This document shows, piece after piece, positions 7,823-13,045 of a DNA stretch of 39,567 nucleotides (the stretch's first letter is position 1; every line of letters begins with the position of its first letter). A program made the translations under genes and the position numbers. The stretch comes from an uncultured Rhodospirillales bacterium (GTDB lineage: Bacteria; Pseudomonadota; Alphaproteobacteria; Azospirillales; Azospirillaceae). Under the pieces are notes generated by a model that did not search any database, was not told the origin of the DNA, and saw only the letters and a list, made by a program, of their open reading frames with translations. The stretch lies in contig CAIZDL010000226.1 of assembly GCA_903931735.1 (NCBI GenBank), forward strand, positions 1 through 39,567, in the 5' to 3' direction.

Positions 7823-8911
7823 TCAACGATCCGAAAGTTCATCCAGCGCTGTAATGGCCGCTTCAAAATCAAAAACACGCAGCCGCCCAGACAAATCGCG
7901 GAGACTATAGAGGATGTCACGCACCCCGTCGAGTGGATCTCCGTCCGCCTCAGCTCCCGGTTCGGGTGTCACAGGCAACGTGGCAACCGCAGCCACCGCT
8001 TCCCTCAGCGCCGCCCGAACCACCGTTACCACCGCTGCTGCCTGATCAAATTTGCCAGCCTCAATGGCCTCTTCCAATTCAGCCGCTGGCATACTGAGCG
8101 ATGGCGCCGCAAGCGTCCCGGCGACCCCTTTCAACGAATGGGCCAGCCGGCGCGCCTCATCCCAATTTTCCTCGGCGACATACAAGGCAAGGTCCGCTTC
8201 GGCCGTGACATACCCATCATGAAAGCTGATCAGCAGCCGCTTTGCCAAATCACGCTTGCCGCCCAGCATCGCCAGAAGCTGAGGAATATCAAACGGCGCC
8301 AGCGAACACGGCAAGCCATCGCCAATCTCCTCAACCACAAGGAGCGCATCGGGCACAAGGAGCACATCGGGCACAAGGAGCGCATCGGGCTGAGGAGAGG
8401 CCGCGGGCGGCATTGCGGGCGTCCTGCGTTCACGAACCTCGACCCAACGACTGAGCATCCCCCGCAAACGCTCGGGATCAATCGGCTTCGAAATGTGATC
8501 AACCATACCAGCATCAAAGCATCGCTTCCGCTCGCGTTCCATGGCGTGCGCGGTCATTGCTACAATCGGTGGATGAAAGCTGCCGAGGGTTTGCAAAATC
8601 CTCCGCGTTGCTTCCAAGCCGTCCATTTCAGGCATTTGAACATCCATAAAAACCACATCATAGGCCTCAGGGCAAGCCACAACCGCTTCAAGTGCAAGCC
8701 GCCCATTTCCTACGCAATCGACGGTCACACCGAACTCATTCAGCAACTCAAGCGCGACGAGTTGATTGATCGAGTTATCATCGGCCACCAAAACATGGGC
8801 GCCCAGAAAATGATCGTCCGGGATCTTGTGGTTTCCATCCTTCACCAACGGCTTAATCCCGGGCGCCGGCCCAGTTGTCGGTTGCACGAATACGGCCGCA
8901 ATCGTATGCAA
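7823..8911 (-). CDS. REC–HPt protein; probably the separated 3' part of the upstream hybrid kinase
   Basis: The fragment starts inside the last helix of a receiver domain (HTIAAVFVQ). A complete receiver follows (VLVADDNSINQ, phospho-Asp in VVFMDVQMPEMDG, Lys in HISKPID), then a low-complexity linker and an HPt domain with phospho-His in ARRLAHSLKGVAGTL. The only start near the 5' end is a TTG without a convincing ribosome-binding site. The reading frame continues unbroken upstream, through FLTKPVTREKI, to a single TGA that ends the kinase gene. It would work as an intermediate in a His-Asp-His-Asp phosphorelay. As a separate gene its start is uncertain; as part of the kinase the full product would be about 882 residues. 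Confidence 0.75.
   Translation of the reverse strand: MHTIAAVFVQPTTGPAPGIKPLVKDGNHKIPDDHFLGAHVLVADDNSINQLVALELLNEFGVTVDCVGNGRLALEAVVACPEAYDVVFMDVQMPEMDGLEATRRILQTLGSFHPPIVAMTAHAMERERKRCFDAGMVDHISKPIDPERLRGMLSRWVEVRERRTPAMPPAASPQPDALLVPDVLLVPDALLVVEEIGDGLPCSLAPFDIPQLLAMLGGKRDLAKRLLISFHDGYVTAEADLALYVAEENWDEARRLAHSLKGVAGTLAAPSLSMPAAELEEAIEAGKFDQAAAVVTVVRAALREAVAAVATLPVTPEPGAEADGDPLDGVRDILYSLRDLSGRLRVFDFEAAITALDELSDR
8336..8389 (-). repeat. Three tandem 18-bp units inside the REC–HPt linker
   Basis: The unit CACAAGGAGCRCATCGGG (plus strand) occurs three times in tandem at 8336, 8354 and 8372, and encodes three copies of PD(A/V)LLV between the receiver and HPt domains. The copies are nearly identical, suggesting recent slippage expansion of the linker. 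Confidence 0.85.
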
Positions 8912-8944
8912 TATTTTTTCTCTCGTAACCGGCTTGGTTAAAAA

Positions 8945-8947
8945 TCA
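8945..8947 (-). other. In-frame TGA interrupting one hybrid kinase reading frame
   Basis: Frames on both sides are identical, and the residues flanking the stop (GVK, stop, FLTKPV) reconstitute the end of a receiver domain, where a Gly codon (GGA) is usual. A single GGA-to-TGA change would explain it. Sequencing error, true nonsense mutation or readthrough cannot be distinguished from one sequence. Confidence 0.85.
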
Positions 8948-10474
8948 TTTGACACCAAAAGACGCAGCCTCGGCCATCGCCTCGTCTTGGTGAAAAGCGC
9001 TGGCCATAATAAGAATTGCAGTATCCGCCGATTTCGGGTCGCGGCTGATTTGCTGAATCGTACCGCCCCCCTCCATCCCGGGTTTTACCCAATCGACTAT
9101 TACTAGGTCGAAAGGACACCCGCGAGCGAATGCAGCCTCAAGCAATACACGAGAATCCTCACCACCAGCCGCCAGATCAATGCTCTTTACATATGGAGCC
9201 AAAATATCTGCGATATGCTTTCTTGCGGCGTCATTGTCATCGATAACCAATATTCGCCGATGAGCCAGCGCCTCCGACACCAAAACCTGGGGGTCATCCC
9301 GCGCAGGCTGCCGCCCAAACCGACCTTGGAACGTAAAACGGCTGCCCTTGCCCGGTTGGCTGGTCACCGACAGAGAGCCCCCCATTAACGCCGCTAACCG
9401 ATTACTAATCGCCAATCCCAGACCAGTGCCACCAAAACGGCGGGTGGTTGACATATCCGCCTGAGAAAATGATTGAAATAGCCGGGCCATTTGCTCCTCT
9501 GTCATTCCAATACCCGAGTCGCGGATACAAAAGGATAACGTCGCCGCCGTGTCGTTCGCCTCAATTACCTGAACCGAAATGATCACCTCTCCGATTTCAG
9601 TAAATTTTACCGCATTCCCCGCCAAATTCAACAAGATCTGCCGGAGCCGCAATGGATCTCCAACCAAGCGGGTCGGAACTACCGGTGAGATATCAAACAA
9701 TAACTCAACATTTTTTTCATGGGCAGCGAACGACAACGAAGACGACAGCTCATCGATCAGGCCCGATAGGTCAAAATCGATCGTTTCCAAATCAAGCTTC
9801 CCAGCCTCTATTTTTGAGAAATCCAGAATATCGTTAATTATTCCCAAAAGTGATTTTGATGCGCTGCTAATTTTGGTGAGATAGTCGGCCTGCCGCGCAG
9901 TCAAATCGGTCTTCATCACCAAATGACTAAGGCCGATAATCGCGTTCATTGGTGTCCGGATTTCATGGCTCATATTAGCGAGAAATTCGCTTTTGATTTT
10001 TGTCGCCTCTTCAGCCGCTTGTTTTGCTTTTTTGAGCGCATCCTCATTTTGTTTCAGCCGCGTAATGTCGGTAAAGACAATATTGATGACTTCCAAGCCA
10101 TCCCAAAATAACGGCGACATAGATACCTGAATGACTTGAACCTCTCTCCCGTCTTCGTACAAACAAAACTCATGATCTCGAATTGCCATTTGGTGATCAA
10201 AGCAATTATTGAACGCCAGTTTTGCCTCTTTGGAATATTCTTCTGGGATAAAATCGAGAAAGTGCATTCCAATTAGATATTGTGCTGGCAAATGAAATAT
10301 GGTTGATGCCTCAGAATTGGCAAAAATGATCGCATGTCTTTGGTGAACAAACAAACCGGTTGGGATCAGATCCAGAAACCCGCCATGCTTTTCCTGTACT
10401 GAAATGATCTCGTCGTGAGTCTTATTTGCATCGATACTCGCTTCAAATAACTCGATATCCCCATTATCATCCAT
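8945..10474 (-). CDS. PAS hybrid sensor histidine kinase, truncated inside its receiver domain
   Basis: A cytoplasmic kinase with no membrane segment. In order: a PAS-like region (about residues 30–150, ending [12 protein letters not shown]), a short coiled coil, HisKA with [15 protein letters not shown], HATPase_c with [14 protein letters not shown] and GGTGLGLAI, then a receiver starting [12 protein letters not shown] with its acceptor Asp in [12 protein letters not shown]. The protein stops at SFGVK, just before the receiver's conserved Lys. The same frame reads on after the TGA as FLTKPV, exactly what the domain should contain, so this looks like a nonsense mutation. The ATG at 10474 has GGGAG 7 bases upstream and is preferred over an in-frame extension to 10696 that shows no family features. 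Confidence 0.85.
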
Positions 10475-10796
10475 CTTTGTCTCCCAACCGACCGCCAGCA
10501 TGGCCCAACACCTCGCGAGCACTCTCTTATCATCGCCGTCGGCATGCTGCAACGCGGATTGGCCATGCGACAGAGTGGCCATGCCCACCAACCAACGCCT
10601 GACATACACAGCTCGGCCGACTCCATAAGCACACACCATGGCCGAAGCCCTGGATGGGCGGGCAACTCGCCGCATGTATGTCGACAGCACCACCACAGTG
10701 TGTTAGTGAGTTGCGGGATTGAGCCACAGGGTGTTCGACCTTACGACCAAACGCTATGTCTAGTCGTTGTCTGACACAACCGGACGGGATTGAGCC
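10475..10796. promoter_or_regulatory. Divergent intergenic region between hybrid kinase and HTH gene, with a 13-bp direct repeat
   Basis: No convincing gene is seen in these 322 bases. The 13-mer CGGGATTGAGCCA occurs twice, at 10714–10726 and 10785–10797. The second copy overlaps the start codon of the HTH gene and provides its GGGA ribosome-binding region. It may be an operator for autoregulation, which is inference from position only. Confidence 0.4.
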
Positions 10797-11291
10797 ATGG
10801 ATGGTAAACTATACCTGTTGACCGAGGCGGCTGAACTGACAGGCATCACCGTCGAGGCCCTCCGCCAACGGATTAAGCGCCGTAAGTTTCAGGGGGTTCG
10901 CGGCAATGATGGCCGGCTTCGTGTCCGCCTGAGCAGCGCCGAGATCGGCACGCTGGCTGCGACCGGTCGCGGATCAACCGGACCGGTTATCACGACCGAA
11001 CCGCCAACTGAACAACCGGCCAACCACGCGATGACCGTCCTGACAAACCGACCGGTCGCAACCGACGCCAGCGAAGCGCGCCACCTCGCGGAAATCGGAA
11101 GGCTCCAAGCCCAACATACCGCCGAGATCGGCAGGCTAATCGATCAGGTAACCGCCGAGCGGGGCTTGTGGTTAGAACGGATTGATGCCGCCGAAATCCG
11201 GGCAGAAAAGGTTGAAGCCAAGCTCGATATGGTCCTCAACGAACTTCTGGCCGACCGCCGCCGCCCCTGGTGGGCGCGCTGGCGACGCTGA
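10797..11291 (+). CDS. Small helix-turn-helix/coiled-coil protein with Trp-Arg-rich tail
   Basis: A 164-residue protein. Residues 6–45 (LLTEAAELTGITVEALRQR followed by GNDGRLRV) resemble the winged-helix DNA-binding unit of excisionase/MerR-type proteins. A Pro/Thr-rich linker spans about 55–90. Residues 93–152 are strongly helical and charged, consistent with a coiled coil, and the protein ends in RRPWWARWRR. This layout recalls small DNA-binding proteins carried on alphaproteobacterial plasmids and mobile regions, but I do not recognise a named family. It stands alone: a repeated 13-mer lies before it and an array of GACTCAC heptamers just after it, so a DNA-binding role on these repeats is plausible. 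Function is unknown. Confidence 0.7.
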   Translation: MDGKLYLLTEAAELTGITVEALRQRIKRRKFQGVRGNDGRLRVRLSSAEIGTLAATGRGSTGPVITTEPPTEQPANHAMTVLTNRPVATDASEARHLAEIGRLQAQHTAEIGRLIDQVTAERGLWLERIDAAEIRAEKVEAKLDMVLNELLADRRRPWWARWRR

Positions 11292-11310
11292 CATACGATA
11301 GCTTCACCCC

Positions 11311-11465
11311 CGGACTCACATCGGACTCACATATATAGACCCCTAGACTCACCGCTGACCTTCCCAGGTATGGCGAATTGATCGTGTAAAATCAAATAGA
11401 TATATGACATACAGCTACTTCTGTGAGTCTGAAAGTGAGTCGCCCTGTGAGTCTCACGGTGAGTC
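11311..11465. repeat. Iteron-like array of GACTCAC / GTGAGTC heptamers with dyad arrangement
   Basis: Left arm: GACTCAC at 11313, 11324 and 11346; the first two lie in exact tandem 11-mers CGGACTCACAT. Right arm: its complement GTGAGTC at 11423, 11435, 11447 and 11459, each exactly 12 bases apart. The arms face each other across an AT-rich centre (about 11370–11412). Regular spacing of about one helical turn and inverted arms suggest cooperative protein binding, as at plasmid iterons, partition sites or complex operators. It lies between the HTH gene and tldD, and the tldD promoter must lie in or after it. Confidence 0.8.
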
Positions 11466-11605
11466 GTGGCGATCGTTGATACGGCGCGGCAACAACCGTC
11501 GAAATGAATCGCAGTAAGCCGCGCGCCGGGCTTGCCTTAACGGGCCATAGACGCCACAGTCACTTCTTGTCCCACAGTTATTCGCCTTCCCTTGTGGAGT
11601 TTGCC

Positions 11606-13045
11606 GTGAGCACTCTTGCCGTCACCGACGATATCTTTTTCAACAAGGCCGGGTTGGACCGGGTGCGCACCGAGGCGCTGGTTTCAGAGGCGTTGGCCGG
11701 GGCCGATGATGGCGAGCTGTACCTGGAATATGCCCAGTCGGAGAGCCTGTCGTGGGATGACGGGAAGCTGAAGAGCGCGGCGTTTGATACCTCGCACGGC
11801 TTTGGCCTGCGGGCGGTAACCGGCGACACTTTTGGCTACGCCCACGCCTCCACGCTGACGGAGCCGGCACTCCGGCGCGCGGCCGCCACGATGAGGGCGA
11901 TCAGGGCCGGGCACAGCGGCAGCTCCAATATGTCGGACCCACCGCACGGCACCAACCGCCTCCTTTACAGCGCCGACAACCCGCTGACCCCGATGCCGTT
12001 TGAAGCCAAGGTCAAGCTACTGGAGGAGATCGACGCCTACGCCCGCTCTCGCGACCCGCGCATCCGCCAAGTCAGCGTCGGGCTGGTCGGCGAATGGCAG
12101 GCGGTACAGATCATCCGCGCCGATGGGTGCCGAATCGCCGACCTCCGACCGCTGGTCCGGCTCAATGTTTCGGTGATAACCGCCGACGGCGAACGCATGG
12201 AAGGCGGCAGCTTCGGCGCTGGCGGCCGCCACGGCTATGAGCGGATCACCACGCCGGAGTGCTGGCAGGCCCAGGTCGATGAAGCACTGCGCCAAGCGCT
12301 GGTCAATCTTGATGCCCGACCAGCCCCCGCCGGCGAGATGACGGTGGTGCTCGGGCCGGGTTGGCCGGGCGTTTTACTGCATGAAGCGATCGGTCATGGC
12401 CTCGAAGGCGACTTTAACCGCAAGGGGACCTCGGCGTTTGCCGGGCTAATGGGCCAACGAATCGGTGCGCCGGGGGTAACGGTGGTCGATGATGGCGGCA
12501 TTGATGACCGCCGGGGCTCACTGAGCGTCGACGACGAAGGCACGCCCAGCCAATGCACAACCCTCATCGAAGACGGCATCCTGGTCGGCTACATGCAAGA
12601 CCGGCTGAACGCGCGCCTGATGGGCCAAGCCCCCACCGGCAATGGCCGCCGCCAAAGCTTTGCTCATCACCCGATTCCCCGCATGACCAACACAGTCATG
12701 CGCTCGGGTCATCATGCTCCCGAGGAGATCATCGCTTCGGTAAAAAATGGGCTTTACGCGATCAACTTTGGCGGCGGGTCTGTGGACATCACCAGTGGTA
12801 AGTTTGTCTTTACCGCTTCTGAGGCCTATCGGATCGAAGATGGCAAGCTTGGCCATGCTGTTAAAAACGCAACCCTGATCGGCCACGGCCCCGACGTGCT
12901 GACCCGAATTTCCATGATCGGCAACGATAGCCGCATGGACCCAGGGGTCGGCGTCTGCGGCAAAGAGGGGCAAGGCGTACCGGTGGGCGTCGGCCAACCA
13001 ACATTACGGGTAGACGGGCTGACGGTTGGCGGAACGGCACCCTGA
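11606..13045 (+). CDS. tldD: Metalloprotease TldD
   Basis: Subunit of the TldD/TldE(PmbA) zinc protease, which degrades unfolded peptides and matures some modified peptides. From a GTG at 11606 the product has 479 residues, the family length; GGAG lies 6 bases before it. The upstream frame to 11504 has no family similarity and is left out. The metal site HEAIGHGLEGDFNRK (His259, Glu260, His264) marks TldD as the catalytic partner. The C-terminal part, with SGKFVFTASEAYRIEDGKL and the Gly-rich NDSRMDPGVGVCGKEGQGVPV, is complete. The partner pmbA is not in this window, which is common. A phosphatase gene follows on the same strand. Confidence 0.95.
   Translation: MSTLAVTDDIFFNKAGLDRVRTEALVSEALAGADDGELYLEYAQSESLSWDDGKLKSAAFDTSHGFGLRAVTGDTFGYAHASTLTEPALRRAAATMRAIRAGHSGSSNMSDPPHGTNRLLYSADNPLTPMPFEAKVKLLEEIDAYARSRDPRIRQVSVGLVGEWQAVQIIRADGCRIADLRPLVRLNVSVITADGERMEGGSFGAGGRHGYERITTPECWQAQVDEALRQALVNLDARPAPAGEMTVVLGPGWPGVLLHEAIGHGLEGDFNRKGTSAFAGLMGQRIGAPGVTVVDDGGIDDRRGSLSVDDEGTPSQCTTLIEDGILVGYMQDRLNARLMGQAPTGNGRRQSFAHHPIPRMTNTVMRSGHHAPEEIIASVKNGLYAINFGGGSVDITSGKFVFTASEAYRIEDGKLGHAVKNATLIGHGPDVLTRISMIGNDSRMDPGVGVCGKEGQGVPVGVGQPTLRVDGLTVGGTAP

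Follow-up and report, generated by a model that had tools for sequence, protein, structure and literature searches.

What reads the cluster of GACTCAC words between a small helix-turn-helix (HTH) gene and tldD in this alphaproteobacterial genome, and what could such a cluster be for? We considered the question in the whole stretch of 39,567 nucleotides that was analysed (hereafter the window). The initial annotation had described seven GACTCAC/GTGAGTC heptamers, three facing four, spaced by 11, 22 and 12-12-12 bases around an AT-rich centre. An exact-match scan confirmed all of this. The position given, 11292-11605, is that of the whole intergenic stretch; the heptamers do lie there, but the array proper occupies 11313-11465. 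The features at the locus are the following:

10776 to 10785, plus strand: putative operator ACAACCGGAC, ending 11 bp before the ATG of the HTH gene
10797 to 11291, plus strand: HTH gene, 164 aa, an open reading frame with an AlphaFold2 model, Foldseek matches and a 77% identical orthologue in the sister species G002
10955 to 11070, plus strand: linker-coding DNA, with several ACCGG(A/T)C copies and no clear 12-bp period
11313 to 11352, plus strand: left arm, three exact GACTCAC copies, of which the first is identical, the second matches at 6/7 bases and the third is lost in G002
11353 to 11422, no strand: AT-rich centre, 60% AT
11423 to 11465, minus strand: right arm, four GTGAGTC copies with a 12-bp period, of which the first three are identical and the fourth is lost in G002
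11606 to 13045, plus strand: tldD, a PmbA/TldD metallopeptidase gene (Pfam PF19289/PF19290/PF01523)

Exact copies of GACTCAC start at 11313, 11324 and 11346 on the plus strand (left arm) and, as GTGAGTC, that is GACTCAC on the minus strand, at 11423, 11435, 11447 and 11459 (right arm), which gives start-to-start spacings of 11, 22, 77, 12, 12 and 12. The word has nine exact matches in the 39.6-kb window, against a mean of 2.5 and a largest count of 6 in 100 shuffles; seven lie inside the array and the remaining two at 10415 and 27958. When every heptamer is considered, the densest cluster per 160 bp of the window is that of GACTCAC, with seven copies, whereas the top cluster in 150 dinucleotide shuffles held three (91 times) or four copies (59 times) and never more. 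The centre between the arms is AT-rich by comparison with the window (60% against 39%). In the window's genome (G000), the pair GACTCAC-N0-20-GACTCAC has five matches, all within the array, and this confinement led us to reject a genome-wide repeat or regulon. Facing heptamer pairs no more than 30 bp apart occurred at a single place among the five genus genomes, in G004. No sigma-70 consensus promoter was found in 10600-11650.

The gene just before the array was said to encode a winged-HTH/coiled-coil protein of plasmid-like style, and this description agrees with the structural model, the fold matches and the relatives found on plasmids. In its model, the protein is a MerR/BldC-like winged HTH followed by a linker, a long helix and a Trp/Arg tail. 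AlphaFold2 (three-sequence alignment; mean pLDDT 79.9, pTM 0.33) placed the winged HTH at residues 4-57 with the element order E-H-H-E-E-H, a disordered linker at 59-89 (residues 59-81 at pLDDT <50), and a single long helix at 90-154, a candidate coiled coil with block pLDDT of 82-98. The top Foldseek match was the BldC-DNA complex 6ama (E 0.022), with no match at or below 0.001 and weak E-values throughout; the closest solved folds to residues 1-62 were BldC bound to DNA, MerR-type regulators, RacA and Xis, all weak matches, with a middling structural Z of about 5. The top two rows of VIA-align matched the long helix only, and the listing, which contained no pSK1 Par chain, is uninformative on relatedness. 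A PDB sequence search returned a weak HTH-sized match (E 0.027) plus coiled-coil proteins. No Pfam or NCBIfam model scored above its cut-off; Pfam, searched to E 0.1, gave sub-threshold matches to HTH_17 and MerR alone and none to DUF536. Seven family members fared similarly, with best E-values of 1.3e-3 (excisionase) in NCBIfam and 5e-4 in PHROGs, and sub-threshold Pfam HTH models. As modelled, it is a DNA-binding protein of plasmid type that probably self-associates.

In the sister species G002, the HTH gene has an orthologue (77% identical protein) in the same orientation before tldD. It is followed by a reduced array of four exact and two degenerate copies: on the left one exact and one 6/7 copy 11 bp apart, with an extra GACTC in the centre, and on the right three exact copies 12 bp apart, such that the left-arm spacing of 11 and the right-arm spacing of 12 are common to both species. 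In an alignment of the two intergenic regions, the five window heptamers with a G002 counterpart were identical at 34 of 35 bases, compared with 5 of 14 bases in the spacers inside those arms and 93 of 265 intergenic bases outside the heptamers (70 of the 265 being gaps); the third left and the fourth right heptamer of the window are lost in G002. Conservation of the heptamers beside diverged spacers argues for selection on the words themselves. By eye, an inverted repeat that reads GGGTGCCAAA / TTTGGCACGCCC on the tldD strand borders the right arm in G002 (L002 1331-1413); no such repeat was noticed in the window.

Gene and array are both present in two of the five genus genomes. The other three (G001, G003 and G004) carry tldD (81-82% identity) and gave no match to the HTH protein; the triple GACTCAC pattern was not found in them, nor was a single GACTCAC in the ~700 bases inspected before their tldD. 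More widely, two of the 82 genomes examined from the order contain the triple pattern (spacers 4-6), and a class-wide sample of 385 genomes, which did not take in G002, yielded it once, in the genome of the window (spacers 5). Because the three congeners with tldD have neither, the array appears to go with the HTH gene, and the proposal that the two travel together held for the orthologues: an array accompanies the one close orthologue found and is absent where the gene is absent. Since both are confined to two sister species, the co-occurrence may nonetheless represent one event. The upstream neighbours of the HTH gene differ between G000 and G002.

We take the window contig to be chromosomal because of its genes (tldD, a hybrid kinase and others). 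The most likely start of tldD is GTG 11606, a query from there aligning from residue 1 in all five genus genomes, and this puts the array 141 to 293 bp upstream. Profile typing of the neighbours of the HTH gene identified a hybrid histidine kinase, tldD and a metallophosphatase, and among these typed neighbours there was neither an initiator (Rep) gene nor an NTPase motor gene. A replication module, one of the roles first suggested, is accordingly not supported, and iterons were rejected: no initiator gene adjoins the array and the spacing is unlike theirs. As for the suggested control region of tldD, three congeneric tldD genes do without the array, but it is possible that the array also controls tldD in this genome. 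Within 7823-10480 (minus strand), the upstream hybrid histidine kinase ends inside a receiver domain (PF00072 matched at 1-92 of 111), and the next minus-strand frame, 7823-8911, resembles by eye a further receiver domain; 7823-10480 may be a split or frameshifted hybrid kinase, or reflect a sequencing error.

The plasmid-like style of the HTH protein was borne out by its relatives, which lie on plasmids, some of them near Rep genes. A direct tblastn search of plasmids with the window protein gave one record, with 30% of the query covered, and stepwise searches extended the family to plasmids of Methylobacterium, Methylorubrum, Agrobacterium, Rhizobium, Sinorhizobium, Bartonella, Aureimonas, Paracoccus, Acetobacter, Gluconobacter and Bradyrhizobium, ranging from ~4 kb to 1.8 Mb. 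Most relatives are annotated as hypothetical proteins; that of pNK6a is called Blr0165 protein, the CB3090 record is without annotation, as is the relative's gene on pGO128. A relative follows a Rep_3 gene on a Paracoccus plasmid and RepL on two Bartonella plasmids, and lies near a G2P-type replication gene in Agrobacterium cucumeris. The window's own assembly has a 6.7-kb contig (C104) with a relative near a Rep_3 initiator. This contig (L004/L029; 6,685 bp) is plasmid-like, with the Rep_3 initiator, ~22-bp repeats beyond it and what looks by eye like a toxin-antitoxin pair. The plasmid that carries the Methylobacterium 4-46 relative also has ParA and ribbon-helix-helix genes, ~1.7 kb from the relative, and this weakens a role in single-protein partition.

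Among 385 genomes of the class, at least two (first profile) and at least four (second profile) have a relative; genome-wide protein searches give lower bounds, since scoring as a rule covered nine first-look candidates in each genome. The relatives on plasmids were sampled from a plasmid collection and therefore cannot show how often the family is chromosomal. An aromatic-basic tail, defined as an 8-residue stretch with at least two W/F and at least two K/R within the last 25 residues, is present in 22 of 27 proteins, the window's included; such a stretch occurs elsewhere in the protein in 3 of 27.

The relatives carry repeats of their own in promoter and linker-coding DNA, and the word is specific to each member: GGACGGGCACC in Pararoseomonas, GACGTCGCCCCT in Paracoccus, GGACAGTCC in Sinorhizobium pRm1132f, AGTCCCGG in p2META1, and GATCCCC in contig C104, where the copies lie within the linker-coding DNA of the HTH/coiled-coil relative. 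Inspection of the plasmid records L027 and L030-L049 showed many linkers with 12-bp-period repeats that recur in the promoter of the same gene, with words that differ between plasmids. Sharing of 6-mers between promoter and linker went beyond shuffles in 13 of 26 sequences (p < 0.05, uncorrected for multiple tests); the test took in 26 of the 27 family sequences, window and near-duplicates included, and omitted L026, which begins inside the gene. In two of the 13 (L037 and L038), the coiled-coil-coding control was equal or higher.

The period itself was clear in counts of exact 5-mers at lag 12 over 20 relatives, window excluded (19 upstream, L026 having no upstream DNA; the near relatives L002, L040, L041, L044, L049 and L050, of the 27, were left out of the period tests). 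Linker-coding DNA gave 74 (15 of 20 members; shuffles 5.8, sd 3.2, largest 17) and upstream DNA 43 (7 of 19 members; shuffles 3.9, sd 2.4, largest 15), and lag 24 was also raised (35 in linker DNA, 37 upstream). The lag-12 controls, run on 21 of the 27 members with the window included, gave 4 for HTH-coding DNA and 23 for coiled-coil-coding DNA, the latter with larger peaks at 21 and 33. Gene ends are uncertain for L050, which ends at the record end, and L034, which is without annotation. Four-residue protein repeats could be the source of the linker period, but non-coding upstream DNA shows the 12-bp period as well.

Downstream of the genes, lag 12 was not raised (10 versus 5.2 in shuffles), while lag 11 gave 32 matches (shuffles 5.2, largest 17), 12 of them from L038. 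Arrays 3' of the gene are rare in the family: an Aureimonas member has TTGAACAGGTG at an 11-bp period directly after its stop codon, carrying the motif of its promoter, and shorter post-stop versions of such an 11-bp array were seen by eye in Methylobacterium 4-46 and Agrobacterium Kin002. Nine more remote HTH relatives, read by eye, had no evident array; the remote relatives L005/L060 and L052-L059 stand outside all counts.

A core word common to GACTCAC and the relatives' repeats was sought and rejected: ACAG/CTGT was the top 4-mer in the 20 relatives (z 3.7 upstream, 3.4 in the linker), and we set it aside because the HTH-coding control reaches z 4.2 for 4-mers and 6.2 for 5-mers. A resemblance by eye between the flank of the 11346 heptamer and a 22-bp iteron of a G037 contig was treated as chance.

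The HTH gene of the window differs from this family pattern. GACTCAC is found in neither its near promoter nor its linker-coding DNA, and its upstream-linker 6-mer sharing is not significant (p 0.45); CAACCGG occurs at -20, +178 and +216 of the gene but is not significant alone in shuffles. Promoter and linker contribute nothing to the period counts, and the window's period is that of the 3' array. The ten bases of ACAACCGGAC are identical in G002, where they end 12 bp before the ATG of the HTH gene. A remote HTH gene on a 753-kb contig (L060, G037 contig C1) also has ACAACCGGAC just before its assumed start, and its match to the window protein spans the HTH region only. If the family follows a rule of one word per protein, in promoter and linker, then the window's word would be AACCGG(A/T)C rather than GACTCAC, and GACTCAC would be read by another protein.

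This leads directly to the strongest rival, in which the array is an operator for another transcription factor controlling tldD, and the HTH protein binds its own AACCGGAC sites as a mere neighbour. We consider this rather unlikely, though a serious contender. It fits an array 141 to 293 bp before the tldD start and away from the promoter of the HTH gene, the absence of GACTCAC from the gene's near promoter and linker, and the 13 of 26 family sequences with their own motif common to promoter and linker. However, three congeneric tldD genes have no such array upstream, and a regulon would be expected to give more close GACTCAC pairs in the genome than the five matches within the array. Control through methylation is less probable still, and we judge it unlikely that the array is a cell-cycle element where GcrA or a methylation-sensitive protein reads replication. 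GANTC is the target of CcrM, which accepts any central base and carries a RAMA domain (PF18755). This is a live rival because every heptamer contains GANTC and the five genus genomes all have GcrA (PF07750) and a RAMA-domain protein (PF18755). The intergenic stretch 11292-11605 holds eight GANTC sites (seven in heptamers and one GAATC at 11506), a count that no 200-bp stretch elsewhere in the window reaches, out of 92 sites in all, and its G002 counterpart holds six, of which two depart from GACTCAC. Yet a central C/G is common to the seven array sites and the six of G002, 13 in total, and the AC that follows is kept in 11 of these 13; such constancy despite the tolerance of CcrM requires a sequence-specific reader. 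Moreover, GcrA and the RAMA protein occur in three congeners whose tldD lacks an array.

It is very unlikely that HTH gene and repeats are the decaying, functionless remnant of an integrated plasmid. Relatives on plasmids, upstream gene neighbours that differ between G000 and G002, and the loss of two window heptamers in G002 are what such a remnant would leave, but five heptamers were kept while their spacers diverged, and the reading frame is intact at 77% identity in two species. We regard as highly improbable that the inverted arms act as RNA, the transcript folding into a long hairpin upstream of tldD. The window stretch folds better than shuffles (z -3.4; 1 of 200 as good) and so does that of G002 (z -2.5), a score that follows from the array because inverted copies of a word must pair; against a hairpin stand the 12-bp period maintained in the right-arm copies, the single left copy of three that is exact in G002, and the lack of any Rfam match at gathering threshold in the window.

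A viral or plasmid origin of the array itself was also considered, the exact triple pattern being present in 24 IMG/VR stretches, and these were not taken as its source. In 21 of the 24 there is no facing heptamer within 300 bp, and most are tandem amino-acid repeats in an open frame; the stretches with one facing copy (L079, L081 and L084) are nearly identical sequences. Frames >80 aa near L079, L081, L084, L069 and L062, read by eye, showed no evident relative of the HTH protein. Five IMG/VR contigs (L064, L065, L066, L075 and L083) have long GTGAGTC tandem arrays with a 12-bp unit, reading as (DSQL)n on the other strand, and no link between these and the window locus was seen. A search of plasmids with the array DNA gave one Vibrio record (E 0.5), which was discarded.

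We favour, at a probability of roughly 0.4, the reading of the array as a cooperative binding array of the adjacent protein, the two forming a plasmid-derived anchoring or segregation module like pSK1 Par or RocS. We assign the array to the HTH protein because its period is like that of the family, because one relative has repeats in the same position, and because array and gene co-occur. The analysis shows the array, its conservation and its co-occurrence with the gene, a predicted protein architecture, and relatives on plasmids with repeats of 11-12-bp period; what we infer on this reading is binding, bridging, anchoring, an effect on tldD and a direction of descent. Each GACTCAC site, about one helical turn from the next, would be occupied by a winged-HTH domain, much as BldC occupies direct repeats, and the coiled coils would link the left and right arms over the AT-rich centre; two facing arms around such a centre suit bridging by a coiled-coil protein. 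The aromatic/basic tail may anchor this assembly to the membrane or nucleoid. The complex would also lie where transcription of tldD would start, and might tether DNA, silence tldD, or both. The module may descend from single-gene stability systems of alphaproteobacterial plasmids and now be settled among chromosomal genes.

More tentatively, and with considerable doubt, the relatives may form an uncharacterised alphaproteobacterial family of single-gene segregation or anchoring proteins in which 12-bp repeats in linker-coding DNA match those of the promoter, one gene thus providing protein, operator and centromere; the window would hold a plasmid-derived copy among chromosomal genes, with its array 3' and its word changed. 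If true, a gene for plasmid anchoring or segregation can become established on a bacterial chromosome along with an array, a mostly unannotated protein family may aid the persistence of alphaproteobacterial plasmids, and the 12-bp repeats in promoters and linker-coding DNA predict the binding place of each family protein. We found no description of this HTH/coiled-coil family or of linker-coded arrays in the open-access literature, which is weak evidence of novelty.

Among known systems, the closest architecture is that of pSK1 Par and RocS, single-protein DNA segregation proteins of the DUF536 type, with an N-terminal MerR-type winged HTH, a long coiled coil and a short C-terminal tail (PMC11500499). 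The window gene resembles them in its N-terminal MerR-type winged HTH, as indicated by the model and by weak BldC, RacA and MerR-type matches, and in the lack of an adjacent motor gene, and its long helix is a candidate for the coiled coil. The family is also marked by a membrane-binding amphipathic helix at the C terminus and by binding to repeats beside the gene, for which the Trp/Arg tail and the array would be the candidates. The window gene differs in having no DUF536 match in Pfam, a Trp/Arg-rich tail and a Gram-negative host, and in its repeats, which are 3' of the gene, those of its relatives being in promoter and linker-coding DNA. The tail recalls the membrane tails of RocS and TubY (PMC11500499, PMC7762940). 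TubY, of type III partition, is portrayed as a plasmid-encoded protein with an HTH, a coiled coil and a basic membrane-binding tail (PMC7762940) that works with TubZ/TubR, whereas no such genes are next to the window gene. ParABS, ParMRC and TubZRC have an NTPase motor beside the DNA-binding gene, which the typed neighbours here do not include. The split centromeres parC of R1 and tubC of pBtoxis are described as direct repeats in two blocks, with a promoter between the blocks in R1 (PMC5016525); the two-block layout is alike, but the window arms face each other and have no adjacent motor gene. An iteron-type origin has an adjacent Rep gene, again absent from the typed neighbours; although relatives lie near Rep_3 genes in contig C104 and on the Paracoccus plasmid, the window heptamers are 11-12 bp apart and not ~22-bp units as on C104.

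BldC, Xis and RdfS are winged HTHs that oligomerise on DNA, the first two being among the closest folds to residues 1-62. BldC is reported to bind direct repeats head to tail (PMC5859096, PMC11963761), with repeats of 9 bp (PMC5859096), and is described as lacking a coiled coil. The window protein goes beyond an HTH alone by the predicted helix at 90-154, and its repeats, direct within each arm as in the BldC sites described, are 11-12 bp rather than 9 bp apart and form two facing arms. The combination of HTH, coiled coil and tail with repeats beside the gene is of a known kind, represented by pSK1 Par, RocS, RacA and TubY; what would be new, if borne out, is the family, its linker-coded repeats and the chromosomal setting.
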